Shown piece after piece: positions 38,760 to 45,394 of a DNA stretch of 48,131 bases (its first letter is position 1; every line of letters begins with the position of its first letter). Both the position numbers and the translations under genes were made by a program. The notes under the pieces were generated by a model, which saw only the letters and a program-made list of their open reading frames with translations, was not told where the DNA came from and ran no database searches. This stretch comes from Alphaproteobacteria bacterium. Its GTDB lineage: Bacteria > Pseudomonadota > Alphaproteobacteria > Reyranellales > Reyranellaceae. The stretch lies in assembly GCA_010032545.1 (NCBI GenBank), contig RGPT01000003.1, forward strand, positions 1 through 48,131. Reading direction: 5' to 3'.

Positions 38760-41700
38760 TCAGTGCGTTGGCTCCGCCGGCTTGGCGGTGGGAGCTGGCG
38801 GCTGGCCCAGCATGCCCTTGATCTTCTCGCGTCCTCTCTGGAAGGCGACGTAAAGGCCGGGGATGACGAAGATGCCGAGGAAGGATGCCGCGATCATGCC
38901 GCCGAACACCGCGGTGCCGACGGCGCGCTGGGTGGCGGCCCCCGCACCGGTCGCGATCACCAGCGGCACCAGGCCCAGGATGAAGGCGAAGGAGGTCATC
39001 ATGACGGCGCGGAAGCGCAGCGCCGCGGCCGTGGTGGCCGCCGTCACGACGTCCTTGCCCTTGGCGCGTTCCTCCATGGCGAACTCGATGATCAGGATGG
39101 CGTTCTTGGCCGCCAGCGCGATCAGCACGACGATACCGATCTGGGCGTAGATGTTGTTGTCGAGGCCGCTCAGGAACAGGGCCGCCATCGCGCCGAACAG
39201 GCCCACCGTCACCGACAGCAGGGCGGCCACCGGGATGGCGGTGCTCTCGTAGAGGCCGACCAGGAAGAGATAGGCGAACACGACGGCGAGCCCGAGGATG
39301 AACCCGGTTTGCCCGGCCGCGGCCTTTTCCTGCAGGGCCGTGCCGGTCCATTCGTAGACGTAGCCAGCGGGCAGCGTCTCCTTGGCCAGCTTCTCCATCG
39401 CCGCCAGCGCCTCGCCCGAGGAATAGCCGGGAGCCGGGGCGCCGTTGATGGTGACCGAGCGCAGGTTGTTGTAGCGGATGATCGATGAGGGCGCGGTAAT
39501 CAGCTCGACGTCGGCCACCGCCTGCAGCGGCACGAGCTCGCCGCTCGACGAGCGCACGCGAACGCGGAACACGTCGTTCACGGTCTTGCGGTCGGCGGCC
39601 TCGGCCTGGACTTTCACCTGCCAGGTCCGACCGAACAGGTTGAAGTCGTTGGTATAGCTGCCGCCCATCGCCGTCTGCAGGGCAGAGAAGATGTCGGCGA
39701 TGTTGACGCCCAGCGCCTGGGCGCGCTCTCGGTCGAGCTTGAGGTTGATCTGCGGCGTTGAGGCGCCGTAGGTCGTGAACACGCCGGCAAGCTGCGGCAC
39801 CTGCTGGGCCGCCACCATCAGGCCGCGCGCCACCGCCGCGAGATCGGCCGGCGACGCCCCGGAGAGGCTTTCGAGCTGGAACTCGAATCCCGAGGAGTTC
39901 CCAAGGCCCATGATCGGCGGCAGGTTGAAGGCGAAGACGTTGGCGGCCGCAACCTGGCTGAAGGCGGCATTGAGTTCCTCGAGCGCGCGGAAGACCGACA
40001 GCTTCGGGTCCTTGCGCTCTGCGAACGGCTTCAGGGCGACGACGACCAGGGCCCGGTTCGGCAAGGCGAGGCCATCGAGCAGGCTGTAGCCGCTGACCGA
40101 GAAGATGTTCTGAAGCCACGGCCGGCCGGCCACCATGCCCTCGACCTCCTCGACCGCCGCCAGTGTGCGGTTGGTCGAGGCGGCATCGGGCAGCTGCAAT
40201 TCGGCCATGAAGGCGCCCTGGTCCTCGTCGGGCAGGAACCCCGAGGGGACCAGGCTGCCGATGCCGCCGGTCGCCACCACGAATCCGGCGACCAGCAGCA
40301 GGGAGATGATGCCGCGCCGGGCGAGCGGCGTCACGATCCGGACGTAGCCGTCGCGCGTCTTGTCGATGCCGTTCTGCAGCCAGGCATTGATGCCGGTCGG
40401 CTTCTTCTTGTGGCGCAGGATCAACGAGCACAGCGCCGGCGACAGCGTGAGCGCGTTGATCGCCGAGATCACCATCGACACCGAAACGGCGACGGCGAAC
40501 TGCTTGTAGAGCTCGCCGGTGATGCCGGGAATGAAGGCGGTCGGGATGAAGACCGACAGCAGCACCAGGGTAATGGCGATGATCGGCCCGGTGACCTGCT
40601 CCATCGCCTTCTCGGTCGCCTGGGCGGGCGTCAGGTGCGGTTCATGCTCGAGGATATGTTCGACCGCCTCGACCACGACGATGGCATCGTCGACCACGAT
40701 GCCGATGGCCAGGACCAGCGCCAGGAGCGAGATGGTGTTGGCCGAGAAACCCAGCGCCAGCATGATGGCGAAGGTGCCGACCAGCGCCACCGGGACCGCA
40801 ACGATGGGAATGATCGTGGCGCGCAGGTTCCCGAGGAAAATCAGCACGACCAGGGCCACGAGGACGAAGGCCTCGATCAGCGTGTGGATCACGCTCTCGA
40901 TGGTGGCTTCGACGAATACCGTGGTGTCGTACATCACGTCGTAGGCCACGTCGTCGGGCAGTCGCGGCTCGAGGTCCTTCAGGGCCTTGCGGACGCCGTT
41001 GGCGGTGGCCAGTGCATTGGCGCCCGGCAGCTGGGCGATCTGGATGCCCGACGCCGGCTTGCCGTTGTAGCGGGCCGCCGAATCGCTTGTCTTGGACCCC
41101 AGCTCGACGCGGGCGATGTCCTTGATCCGGACCAGCGCGCCGTCGGACGTGGCCCGCACGACGATATTCTCGAACTCCTCGACCGTCGTCAGCCGGCCCT
41201 GGGTAGTGATGTTGAGCTGGAAGTCGACATCGGGCATCAGGGGGGCAGCGCCGACCAGGCCGACCGCAGCCTGGACGTTCTGCGCCTGGACGGCCTTGAC
41301 CACGTCGTTCGGCGTGATGTCGAGGCTCGACATGCGGTCGAGGTTGAGCCACACGCGCATGGCGTAGTCGAGCGCACCGAACAGCGATGCGTCGCCGACG
41401 CCGGGGACGCGGCGCAAGGTGTCGAGCATGCTGATGGTGGCGAAATTCGACAGGAACAGGGCGTCGCGGGTGCCCTTGGGCGAGTAGACCGCCACCACCT
41501 GCAAAAGCGCCGAGGACTGCTTCTTGGTCGTGACGCCGTTGCGCTGCACCTCGGGCGGCAGCAGTGCCAGAGCCTGGTTGACGCGGTTGGTGACGTTCAC
41601 GGTGTTGAGGTCGGGGTTGGAACCGACCTCGAAACTGACGGTGAGCTGATAGCTGCCATCGCCGCCCGACGTCGATTTCATGTAGATCATGCGCTCGACG

Positions 41701-41918
41701 CCGTTGACCTGCGCCTCGATGACCTGTGCCACGCTTTCCTCGACCGCCTGGGCTGAGGCACCGGGGTAGACGGTCGCCACCCGGACCTGGGGCGGCACGA
41801 TGTCGGGGAACTGCGCCACCGGTATCGCCGTCATGGCGATCACACCGGCGATTGAAATCACCGTCGAGATGACGAAAGCCAGCCGCGGGCGGCGGATGAA
41901 CAGCGACGAAATTGTCAT
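38760..41918 (-). CDS. RND efflux transporter, HAE1 (AcrB/MexB) family
   Basis: 1052 residues, the standard length. The N-terminus SSLFIRRPRLAFVISTVISI, the porter domains (YPGASAQAVEESVAQVIEAQ; NVTNRVNQALALLP), the proton-relay aspartates in GIVVDDAIVVVE, the conserved lysine in LIALAAKNAILIIEF, and twelve expected membrane helices are all present. As a trimer it exports lipophilic compounds, taking them from the periplasm. It is encoded 4 bases after its adaptor. No outer-membrane TolC-type channel gene is present, so an unlinked one must serve. Confidence 0.95.
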   Translation of the reverse strand: MTISSLFIRRPRLAFVISTVISIAGVIAMTAIPVAQFPDIVPPQVRVATVYPGASAQAVEESVAQVIEAQVNGVERMIYMKSTSGGDGSYQLTVSFEVGSNPDLNTVNVTNRVNQALALLPPEVQRNGVTTKKQSSALLQVVAVYSPKGTRDALFLSNFATISMLDTLRRVPGVGDASLFGALDYAMRVWLNLDRMSSLDITPNDVVKAVQAQNVQAAVGLVGAAPLMPDVDFQLNITTQGRLTTVEEFENIVVRATSDGALVRIKDIARVELGSKTSDSAARYNGKPASGIQIAQLPGANALATANGVRKALKDLEPRLPDDVAYDVMYDTTVFVEATIESVIHTLIEAFVLVALVVLIFLGNLRATIIPIVAVPVALVGTFAIMLALGFSANTISLLALVLAIGIVVDDAIVVVEAVEHILEHEPHLTPAQATEKAMEQVTGPIIAITLVLLSVFIPTAFIPGITGELYKQFAVAVSVSMVISAINALTLSPALCSLILRHKKKPTGINAWLQNGIDKTRDGYVRIVTPLARRGIISLLLVAGFVVATGGIGSLVPSGFLPDEDQGAFMAELQLPDAASTNRTLAAVEEVEGMVAGRPWLQNIFSVSGYSLLDGLALPNRALVVVALKPFAERKDPKLSVFRALEELNAAFSQVAAANVFAFNLPPIMGLGNSSGFEFQLESLSGASPADLAAVARGLMVAAQQVPQLAGVFTTYGASTPQINLKLDRERAQALGVNIADIFSALQTAMGGSYTNDFNLFGRTWQVKVQAEAADRKTVNDVFRVRVRSSSGELVPLQAVADVELITAPSSIIRYNNLRSVTINGAPAPGYSSGEALAAMEKLAKETLPAGYVYEWTGTALQEKAAAGQTGFILGLAVVFAYLFLVGLYESTAIPVAALLSVTVGLFGAMAALFLSGLDNNIYAQIGIVVLIALAAKNAILIIEFAMEERAKGKDVVTAATTAAALRFRAVMMTSFAFILGLVPLVIATGAGAATQRAVGTAVFGGMIAASFLGIFVIPGLYVAFQRGREKIKGMLGQPPAPTAKPAEPTH

Positions 41919-41922
41919 GGAG

Positions 41923-43056
41923 TTATTGCTTCTTCGCGGAAGCCGCGGGCGGCGCCTGTGTCGGTGTCACCGTCATGCCGGGGCGCACGCGTTGCTGCCC
42001 CTGGATGATCACTTTCTCGCCTGCCTTCAGGCCCTCGGTGATGGAAACCAGCCCGTCGCGTGAAACGCCGGTCTTGACCCGGCGCTGCTCGGCAACATTC
42101 TTGTCGTTGACGACGAACAGGTAGGAGCCGCTCTGGTCCTGGGCGATCGCGGCCTGCGGCACCGCGACGACGGTCGGGACCTTCTCGCCCTCGACGATCA
42201 CGCGCACCGTCTGGCCGTCGGTCAGCAGACCTTCCTTGTTATCGAAAACCGCTCGCACCATCTGACCGTCCGTCTTGGCATCGGCGGTGACGTCGATGAA
42301 GTCGAGCTTGCCCTTGTTCTTGTAAATGCTGCCGTCGGCCAGCCGCAGACGGACGACGAGGGCATCGCCCGACGTCGTGTCGCGTCGGGCATCGAGCAAT
42401 TCTCGTTGGGTGATGGAAAACAGCACGCGGATCGGGTTTTCGCTGACCACTGTGGCAAGCACGCCCGAGTCGGGGCCGACGATGTTTCCCGGCGAGACCG
42501 CGGCACGACCGACGCGGCCGTCGATCGGCGACTTGATTTCGGTGTAGGAGAGCTGGATCTCCGCATCGCGCAGTTGCGCGGAGGCATCCTCGAGCTGTGC
42601 CTTGGCCTGGAGCTGTTCCGACAGCCGCTGGTCGTAGGTCACCTGGGTGCCGGTCTTGCTGCGTAGCAATTCCTCGGCGCGGTTGAGTTGCAACTCGGCG
42701 TTGGTCAAGGCGGCTTTCGCGGCATCGCGCTGGGCGACCTTTTGGGCGACCGCGGCCTGGTAAGGTTCGGGTTCGATGGTGAACAGGACTTGGCCTCCCT
42801 TGACCGCGTCGCCATCGTTGAACTTGCGCGGCCCGAGGAAGCCTTTGACCCGGGCCCGCAGCTCGACCTTGTCGACCGCGGCGGCACGACCGATGAACTC
42901 GGACTGGTCGGCGATTGGCGTCAGCTCGGCCGGCTGGACCAGAACGGCGGGCGGGGCGGCACCCTGCTGGGCTCCTGCCGGGCTGCCAGGAAGCGTCGCC
43001 ATCAGGCCGGCTCCCAGAAGCGCCAGTATCCGCAAACGCCGCTCTTGCATTGTCAT
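41923..43056 (-). CDS. RND efflux periplasmic adaptor (AcrA family)
   Basis: 377 residues. It begins MTMQERRLRILALLGAGLMA with a signal peptide ending near AGA-Q; unlike AcrA no lipobox cysteine is visible. Lipoyl halves (VELRARVKGFLGPRKFNDGD and YTEIKSPIDGRVGRAAVSPG) flank a coiled-coil hairpin rich in alanine and glutamine. The C-terminal GLKAGEKVIIQGQQRVRPGM and a short disordered tail follow. I took the ATG at 43054-43056, with AGGGA just upstream, over an earlier start at 43086. Operon with the transporter gene. Confidence 0.93.
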   Translation of the reverse strand: MTMQERRLRILALLGAGLMATLPGSPAGAQQGAAPPAVLVQPAELTPIADQSEFIGRAAAVDKVELRARVKGFLGPRKFNDGDAVKGGQVLFTIEPEPYQAAVAQKVAQRDAAKAALTNAELQLNRAEELLRSKTGTQVTYDQRLSEQLQAKAQLEDASAQLRDAEIQLSYTEIKSPIDGRVGRAAVSPGNIVGPDSGVLATVVSENPIRVLFSITQRELLDARRDTTSGDALVVRLRLADGSIYKNKGKLDFIDVTADAKTDGQMVRAVFDNKEGLLTDGQTVRVIVEGEKVPTVVAVPQAAIAQDQSGSYLFVVNDKNVAEQRRVKTGVSRDGLVSITEGLKAGEKVIIQGQQRVRPGMTVTPTQAPPAASAKKQ

Positions 43057-43140
43057 TTTCCCTGCTCGCCCATAACGTCCGGACACTGCCTTAATTCGAC
43101 AAAACGGTCACTGTAAATTCTGGCGGAGAAGGAGGGTGTA

Positions 43141-44559
43141 ATGGCGGCGATGCGTTGGCTTGGCCTCGTTCTGTCGCTGGCCTTCGCCCTTGCGGTTTCC
43201 GACATCGCGGCACAGACGCGGAACAGTTTCTCAAATCCGGCTGAGTACGATTCCTACATGGCCGCCCTGAACACGCGCGATGCAGCCAAGCGCGCCACGG
43301 CAATGGAAGTCTTCGTGGCCTGGTATCCCGGCAGCGTACTCAAGACCGAAGCTCTCGAACAGGCAATCGCTGCCTGGCAAGCAGCCAACCAGCCTGCCAA
43401 GGCCGATGTCATCGCCCAGCGCCTTTTGCAGGTCGATCCCGACAACGTCCGCGCGCTTGCTGAGCGCGCCTATGGCGGGCGCACGCGCGCCGCAGCGGGC
43501 GATGCTGCGGCCCTGCCCCCGGCGATCGCGGCGGCCGAGCGCGGATTGCTCGTCCTGCCCAGGTGGCCGAAGCCGGTGTCGCTTACCGACGCCGCCTTTG
43601 CGCGGGTCAAGGAGCAGATGGCAGGCGTCTTCAACGGCACGTTGGGTTTTGCCGCGCTCTAGGCCAAGGATTATGACACTGCGCGGCGCTTCTACCGCCT
43701 CTCGGTCTCGGCCGAGTCGGACAATCTGCAGGACGTTTACCAGCTCGCCGTGGCACAGCTCGAGGGCACGCCGCTCGACCCCCTTGGCTTCTGGTACGCA
43801 GCGCGCTCCATCGCACTTGCGCGCGCGGCCAGGAACGAAGCGGCAGCCGCCGACATCGATCGCTACGCGCGCTCGCGCTATCGCGTTTATCGCGGCAGCG
43901 AGGAAGGCTGGAAGGAGCTGATCGCGCGGGTTGCCGCCGGCGAGCGTGCGCCGCCGGAAAGTTTCGCCAAGTCGATTCCGCGCTTGCTGACGCCGCCTGA
44001 GGCGGCATTGGTGCTCGTGGAGGAGAACGATCCCGCCAAGCTCAGCTTCGCCGATTGGGCGTTGGTTTTACGCCATCGCGACGCGACGCCTGCCAACAAG
44101 GCGGCGGCAGACAAAGTCTGGCAGGCGATCGCCGCCAGGCAGCAGGGTGGCGGCGCGCGGCTCAAGATTCCGGTGAAGGTGATCTCGGCCACGCCCGACC
44201 GGATCGAGGCGGCGATCACCGACGAGAACAAGGCAGCGAATGTCGTCGATCTCGTCGTGCTGATGGCCCGGCCGCTCAGCCCGCTGCCCGCCGTCGGCGC
44301 TGCCATCGCCGTTGTGGGCACGCTGAGCGATTACCGCGCCCAACCTTTCACGTTCCTCATGACGCGGAGCGAGCTCGCGCCCGAATCGCTGCCGGTCGCC
44401 GGCGGACCCTGCGCCGACCCCCGGCCACAGATGTGTACCCGAGACTATCGTCCGGCCTGCGGCGTCCACCGTGATGGCAGCCGCAAGACTTATGGCAACG
44501 CCTGCAGCGCTTGCGCCGACCCCGAGGTCGTGAAGCAGGACGCGGGCGCCTGTCCTTGA
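43141..44559 (+). pseudogene. Secreted repeat protein with a C-terminal Kazal domain, interrupted by an amber codon
   Basis: One 473-codon frame is split by a TAG at 43660-43662; reading continues in the same frame directly after it (AKDYDTARRFYRLSVSAES). A CAG-to-TAG change would explain it. GGAGAAGGAGGG before the ATG and a signal peptide (WLGLVLSLAFALAVSDIAAQ) show it was meant to be exported. The middle is alpha-helical with TPR-like character. The last 50 residues are a Kazal-type inhibitor motif: six cysteines spaced as C-x7-C (CTRDYRPAC), TYGNACSAC and a final GAC. Kazal domains inhibit serine proteases and are uncommon in bacteria. A downstream ATG at 43750 could restart a shorter cytoplasmic product. 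A sequencing error is possible. Confidence 0.8.
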
Positions 44560-44563
44560 GTCG

Positions 44564-45394
44564 TTAGTGCGCCATCAGCAGGGGCACGCGGCAGGACGAG
44601 ATCACCTTGCCGGTGGCGCCACCGAGGCCCAGGAAACTCATGACCTGGCCGCGGCCGTAGGCGCCCATGACCAGGAGGTCGGCGCCCTTGCCGTGCGTGT
44701 AGTCGAGCAGGGCGCGGCCGCGGGCGCGGCCTGAGACGATGCCGGGATCGATGGCATCGATCGCGGTGGCGATGCCGTGCCGTGCGAGATTGCGTGCCAG
44801 ATACGAGGCGCCGACATCGTCGGGCGTGCTGCCAGCCACCAGGAGGGTGATCTTCGACGCCGCCTTCAGGAACGGCAGCGCATATCCGACGGCGCGTGCG
44901 GCCTGGAAGCTGCCGTTCCACGCCACGACCACCGATCCGAACGCACCCGTTCCAACTGTGGGCGGCGCGATCATGACGGCGCGCGCGCACTCGTAGATGG
45001 CGGCCTCGACGGTGGCGGGCGCCACGTTCTCGGGATCCGCGCCCGGCCGGCCGAGCACCAAAATGTCGGAGCAGCGGCCCATCGCCACCAGCGTATCGAG
45101 CGTGGCGGTCTTGGCCGCCGTGTAGGTGGCGCCCTTGATCGGCGACACGATCTCTTTGTAGGCGCGCTCGGATTCCTTGGCGCGCGCCTCCAGTCGCTTG
45201 TCGTCGATGTCGATCAGGAGTGGCATCGCCTCGCCGCTCATCGCAAGACCGCCGACGATGCCGCCCGCGGGGCCGACCGGCAGATGAAGGGCGTCCACAG
45301 TGCCGTCGAACGCGGCTGCCGCGCGCGCAGCCAGGCGGAACGACATGGCGGCGTCGGGACCACCTTCGGACACGGCCAAAACGGACTTGATCAT
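44564..45394 (-). CDS. Universal stress protein with two Usp domains
   Basis: 276 residues, twice the single-domain size. The first domain starts MIKSVLAVSEGGPDAAMSF; the second starts GSVVVAWNGSFQAARAVGYA near residue 152 and ends with GAYGRGQVMSFLGLGGATGK, an approximate form of the ATP-binding G-x2-G-x9-G-(S/T) motif. Such proteins act in the cytoplasm in general stress responses. GAGGAGAAA precedes the ATG. It ends 4 bases from the convergent Kazal-domain gene. Confidence 0.88.
   Translation of the reverse strand: MIKSVLAVSEGGPDAAMSFRLAARAAAAFDGTVDALHLPVGPAGGIVGGLAMSGEAMPLLIDIDDKRLEARAKESERAYKEIVSPIKGATYTAAKTATLDTLVAMGRCSDILVLGRPGADPENVAPATVEAAIYECARAVMIAPPTVGTGAFGSVVVAWNGSFQAARAVGYALPFLKAASKITLLVAGSTPDDVGASYLARNLARHGIATAIDAIDPGIVSGRARGRALLDYTHGKGADLLVMGAYGRGQVMSFLGLGGATGKVISSCRVPLLMAH

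Follow-up and report, generated by a model that had tools for sequence, protein, structure and literature searches.

The window analysed here, a stretch of DNA of 48,131 nucleotides, carries a conserved, real gene of Reyranella in which a TPR-like helical body is joined to a C-terminal Kazal domain, and in this one genome the gene is split by an in-frame TAG. The reading that we favour, and regard as probable, is that the gene specifies an exported TPR-Kazal protein, a predicted Kazal inhibitor of the trypsin type, which this genome would have lost through the TAG. The features of the gene are as follows.

43141–44559, plus strand: the entire TPR-Kazal gene, with 472 codons, the TAG included, followed by TGA.
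43129–43135, plus strand: a Shine-Dalgarno-like AAGGAGG; close relatives have similar purine-rich sites 5' of the start.
43141–43215, plus strand: a signal-peptide-like N-terminus, residues 1–25, recognized by eye and modelled as a low-confidence helix.
43237–43935, plus strand: a TPR-like helical solenoid, about residues 33–265, from the AlphaFold model, VIA-align and Pfam TPR_2.
43660–43662, plus strand: the in-frame TAG, codon 174, within a TPR helix.
43750–43752, plus strand: GTG, the earliest in-frame start-type codon 3' of the TAG.
44161–44376, plus strand: a strand-rich module, about residues 341–412, from the model at lower confidence.
44410–44553, plus strand: the Kazal domain, residues 424–471, C-x7-C-x7-C-x14-C-x2-C-x12-C.
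44440–44442, plus strand: the predicted P1 residue, Arg434, from the alignment to ovomucoid.

The frame starts at ATG 43141, is interrupted at codon 174, continues through 298 open codons and ends with TGA at 44557–44559. The TAG is its single break and the sole in-frame stop before the TGA, as the sequence-only reading had described, and the strong Shine-Dalgarno site of that reading is likewise present. The protein had also been called secreted. A signal-peptide-like start is visible by eye, and the orthologues have similarly hydrophobic N-termini in an alignment of 30 loci (A1); secretion beyond that goes further than the signal carries, and the periplasm is the conservative reading. A1 takes in 30 of 31 loci; the one left out, L031, duplicates the window's own stretch, and A1 also omits those matches of a 61-genome search that came without a locus.

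The six-cysteine Kazal motif reported at the end of the protein was borne out. The last 49 residues hold cysteines 424, 432, 440, 455, 458 and 471 (spacing 7-7-14-2-12), and all six are kept in 30/30 rows of A1. In a set of 54 named loci, which overlaps with the genome-search sets so that the counts are not independent, all six lie within the local alignment in 49; in the other five the alignment ends just before Cys6 (two loci) or well before the domain (three). The curated cut-off of Pfam Kazal_1 (PF00050) is 21 bits. The tail by itself reached 26.1 bits and the genome search gave 24.2 bits, while the post-stop half (20.8 bits) and the whole read-through protein (19.9 bits) fell just short. 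The same model matched 30/30 A1 members at E ≤ 0.01. Kazal_2 (PF07648) gave 0 matches in the window's genome and also 0 in all 14 control genomes, and no NCBIfam model matched the protein or its tail. A chance pattern of cysteines is ruled out by the conservation together with the Kazal_1 matches.

Kazal inhibitors are a classical animal family (MEROPS family I1 for the classical members), with disulfide pairs 1-5, 2-4 and 3-6. When the tail was compared with solved structures, ovomucoid inhibitor domains ranked first (E 2.3e-05), and its CTRDYRPAC aligned with the CTREYRPLC of ovomucoid. Besides the order of the six cysteines, the tail has in common with the ovomucoid third domain and other classical Kazal inhibitors the CTxxYRPxCG loop, the TY-x-N motif and a basic P1. 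However, the Reyranella protein differs from ovomucoid in having four extra residues between Cys3 and Cys4 and an exported TPR body, in being bacterial, and in that its inhibitory activity is a prediction. Near the predicted reactive site, Y436, R437, P438 and N453 are invariant (30/30), and residue 433 is T in 29 rows and S in one. Residue 434, which we take to be P1 from the ovomucoid numbering, is R in 18, K in nine and Q in three rows of A1 (n = 30). Over the 54 named loci it is R in 34, K in 11, Q in five and H in one, with three not reaching the column. As to structure, a strand-strand-helix-strand order was predicted for the tail with a local pLDDT of 75–82. Modelled alone, the C-terminal 137 residues gave a poor model (mean pLDDT 56.5), with which no Foldseek match to a Kazal structure was significant (best E 2.8).

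The variation at the predicted P1 (R, K, Q and one H) speaks against the inhibitor reading. It is consistent instead with the Kazal-type tail being a disulfide-bonded binding or structural module, the role that such modules have in follistatin and agrin, and the Gln or His found there in some species, the longer Cys3–Cys4 stretch and the fusion to a large TPR body all lean that way. Conversely, the surroundings of the predicted reactive loop are strongly conserved and match those of ovomucoid inhibitors, and 45 of the 51 named loci whose alignment extends to the predicted P1 have a basic residue there (34 R, 11 K). We consider a purely structural or binding role unlikely, and a trypsin-type inhibitor remains the preferred reading of the tail.

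The helical body of the sequence-only reading also holds, with helices in the model to about residue 335, but is better specified as a TPR solenoid. The AlphaFold model (30 sequences; mean pLDDT 78.6, pTM 0.58) is helical up to that point, followed by the strand-rich module and then the Kazal tail, and pLDDT in blocks of ten is 79–95 across residues 31–270. By Foldseek and VIA-align, residues about 21–282 resemble TPR proteins (best E 3.2e-04, best Z 15.4). Because a Z of this size is common for helical repeats, more weight is given to Pfam TPR_2, which matches 29/30 members at E ≤ 0.01, a limit that the window's own protein misses. On the model and these matches, the body is assigned as a TPR solenoid. 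PilF/PilW and MamA have a similar solenoid (Z about 13–14), although their identity to the body is about 9–15% and the common fold shows no common function. For the strand-rich module at 341–412, remodelled together with the tail, a fold search found no significant match.

A profile search of the order's 76 genomes gave matches in 62, namely 59 of 65 Reyranella genomes (the window's own included), three of ten from other genera of the family, where the match covers the Kazal part only, and 0/1 from another family. Intact orthologues thus exist, whereas the lack of any orthologue with the domain had been named in the sequence-only reading as an argument for a chance pattern. Of the 61 genomes in the other search, 36 have the gene and 35 of these are of the same genus, again counting the window's; no second copy was found in the window's genome. 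Reyranella massiliensis, R. soli, R. aquatilis and Enhydrobacter aerosaccus appear among the titles of the named loci, along with many metagenome genomes with broader labels. By kinship, the window's genome belongs to Reyranella.

Outside the genus the picture is one of isolated Kazal domains. In the class profile search (289 genomes, up to five candidates scored in each), no full-length relative outside Reyranella was present among the matches listed; there were at least five weak matches to the Kazal part (within residues 423–473) and at least three weak matches to short stretches of the body (E 7.4e-4 to 0.009). The frames inspected outside Reyranella, at some of the loci, have a Kazal domain at the end and, judged by eye, nothing resembling a TPR body. 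Short Kazal proteins that match Pfam are encoded in three genomes of another Reyranellaceae genus (L105–L107). Like these, proteins of other Alphaproteobacteria (L086, L087 and L091) resemble the Reyranella protein in their terminal Kazal domain and in an export signal seen by eye, and the Kazal domains of L105–L107 align to the A1 profile and have the same longer Cys3–Cys4 stretch. The stand-alone proteins differ in being short (83–84 residues in L105–L107), in having a lipobox by eye and in having no TPR body. In L106 (2118–3279) and L107 (288–1432) the small Kazal lipoprotein gene adjoins, in the same direction, a gene whose product carries a murein transglycosylase domain (SLT_2). At L105 (2008–2522) one genome has a tandem pair, a Kazal protein and a second, candidate one.

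On present evidence, the sequences searched suggest that the TPR-Kazal fusion is confined to Reyranella, and its Kazal domain was perhaps borrowed from a short family lipoprotein like those of L105–L107. Kazal domains had been called rare in bacteria, and the counts agree: Kazal_1 was found in 10/289 genomes across the class, three of them Reyranella, and in 17/398 across the phylum, two of them Reyranella. Bacterial Kazal domains are nevertheless known, if mostly unstudied, and the same family has stand-alone ones in another genus. It is the genus-wide TPR-Kazal fusion that appears to be new; in the literature searched no paper pairs Reyranella with Kazal, and among the titles listed, including those on periplasmic Kazal inhibitors, none is on a bacterial TPR-Kazal protein.

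The gene occupies a fixed place between three neighbours, all on the opposite strand.

38760–41918, minus strand: an RND efflux transporter of the AcrB family, adjoining the HlyD gene.
41923–43086, minus strand: the HlyD/MFP subunit of the RND pump, the divergent neighbour, with its true start probably near 43050.
44564–45394, minus strand: a universal stress protein (Usp), the convergent neighbour.

The Kazal gene adjoins and diverges from the HlyD-AcrB genes in 50/54 named loci. Among the four exceptions, the contig ends inside the gene in L074 and L085, and L067 and L070 have no pump there. The Usp gene lies downstream in 46/54, and in seven of the other eight loci the flank there is short. 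Nothing adjoining the Kazal gene looks like a target protease.

The locus is also informative where the gene is missing. Two near-complete Reyranella genomes (G005 and G023) keep the pump and Usp genes in position but have a glutathione S-transferase gene in the gap, and the Kazal gene was not found in either. The transferase of G005 was identified by Pfam, and that of G023 shares 87% identity with it across 211 residues; the replacing genes lie at L183 959–1594 and L184 1367–1999. Since it is absent from the same locus in two near-complete genomes, the Kazal gene is dispensable. The remaining four genus genomes that lack a match give a less clear picture: G334 (78% complete) carries the Usp gene, and in G331, G346 and G353 both neighbours are represented by distant relatives only.

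The TAG itself is confined to this genome. The codon 174 column is Gln in 29/29 aligned relatives of A1 and in 49 of the 54 named loci (another residue in four, not reached in one), none of the 54 has a stop in the matched frame, and in the order profile search the window's match alone has an internal stop. A single substitution in a Gln codon, CAG to TAG, explains the break, as had been proposed. Private substitutions were counted against three close relatives only. This lineage has 14 non-synonymous (N) and 26 synonymous (S) changes before the stop, and N 20 and S 44 after it; the nearest relative has N 7 and S 11 before the corresponding position, and N 3 and S 23 after it, so that post-stop non-synonymous change is higher in this lineage in both number and share. 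When the post-stop changes were placed at random, the mean N was 41.4 of 64 and no trial came down to the observed 20 (0/2000); for the Kazal part by itself, 10/2000 trials reached its N 3, S 10. An old pseudogene is therefore rejected, the post-stop non-synonymous changes being far under neutral placement. The nearest relative is 88% identical and the lineage correspondingly long, so the constraint shows just that most of that lineage had passed before the stop arose. The stop is thus either of very recent origin or an artefact of the assembly, of the strain or of a minority allele.

That the TAG is real and recent, the strain having just lost its putative inhibitor, has in our estimate an even chance of being right. 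One substitution is enough, and the absence of the gene from the same locus in G005 and G023 indicates that its loss is tolerated. The lack of relaxed constraint after the stop works against this to the extent that the mutation must then be young, and an error would leave the same pattern. A sequencing, assembly or minority-strain error, with the gene intact in the organism, is a serious possibility to which we give a little less credence. The assembly is fragmented (4.59 Mb in 567 contigs, with 3.84% contamination), the stop is the sole one among all matched relatives, and purifying selection is seen throughout the post-stop part; the nearby AcrB, HlyD and Usp frames of the window are open and align across nearly their full length. 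However, a recent true mutation predicts an identical pattern, and the two genomes without the gene count against an error just as they count towards a tolerated loss.

The constraint on the post-stop codons would also fit readthrough or suppression of the TAG, with full-length protein still being made, and TAG codons are readily decoded with Gln. Against this, no tRNA with a CTA anticodon was present among 38 tRNA matches (an incomplete set, in which Gln, Tyr and Ile tRNAs are also missing), TAG terminates other frames of the window, and no relative carries the stop; readthrough is accordingly very improbable. TAG ends 5/25 window frames (hand-picked, some possibly not genes), and a code change in which TAG is sense throughout was rejected on this ground. 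A downstream restart was likewise rejected, as the first candidate, the GTG at 43750, is without a clear ribosome-binding site and the product would lack the signal peptide. The genome also has a tRNA-Sec (anticodon TCA; L144 103–199), and selenocysteine at UGA is possible.

From the domain order and the alignments, the intact protein would most likely serve in the periplasm as a trypsin-type protease inhibitor carried by a TPR scaffold. We infer the export, the inhibition, the target, the role of the TPR body and the effect of the stop from these features. The protein would be exported, most likely to the periplasm, with the signal peptide followed by the TPR solenoid, the strand-rich module and the C-terminal Kazal domain. 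By the standard Kazal mechanism, the exposed loop would most likely offer a trypsin-like serine protease its P1 residue (Arg, Lys or Gln) and stay bound, while the TPR body may bind another envelope protein, thereby tethering or positioning the inhibitor. The TAG at codon 174 would leave an exported fragment of 173 residues without the Kazal domain, and the inhibitor would be lost.

A comparison for the proposed place and purpose is ecotin, a serine protease inhibitor of Gram-negative bacteria, the fold of which is unrelated to Kazal. As described in PMC9904509, ecotin resembles the proposed inhibitor as a periplasmic guard against outside serine proteases, but works as a dimer, unlike the proposal here. 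Two further reports place Reyranella in amoeba co-culture and protist microbiomes (PMC12108058, PMC9074860). By analogy with the action against host proteases proposed for ecotin (PMC9904509), a shield against the proteases of predators is a fair hypothesis. A more elaborate version, which we regard as improbable, would have the pump expel toxins while the Kazal tail blocks the trypsin-like digestive proteases of predatory protists, the two perhaps co-regulated and P1 (R, K, Q or H) tuned to the enemy at hand locally.

There is nothing unusual about the stop, which marks a recent loss or an error in a single genome, and the gene and its domain are of more interest. With a Kazal-TPR fusion throughout the genus, a fixed place beside an efflux pump and a clear P1 prediction, Reyranella offers a testable case of a bacterial inhibitor.
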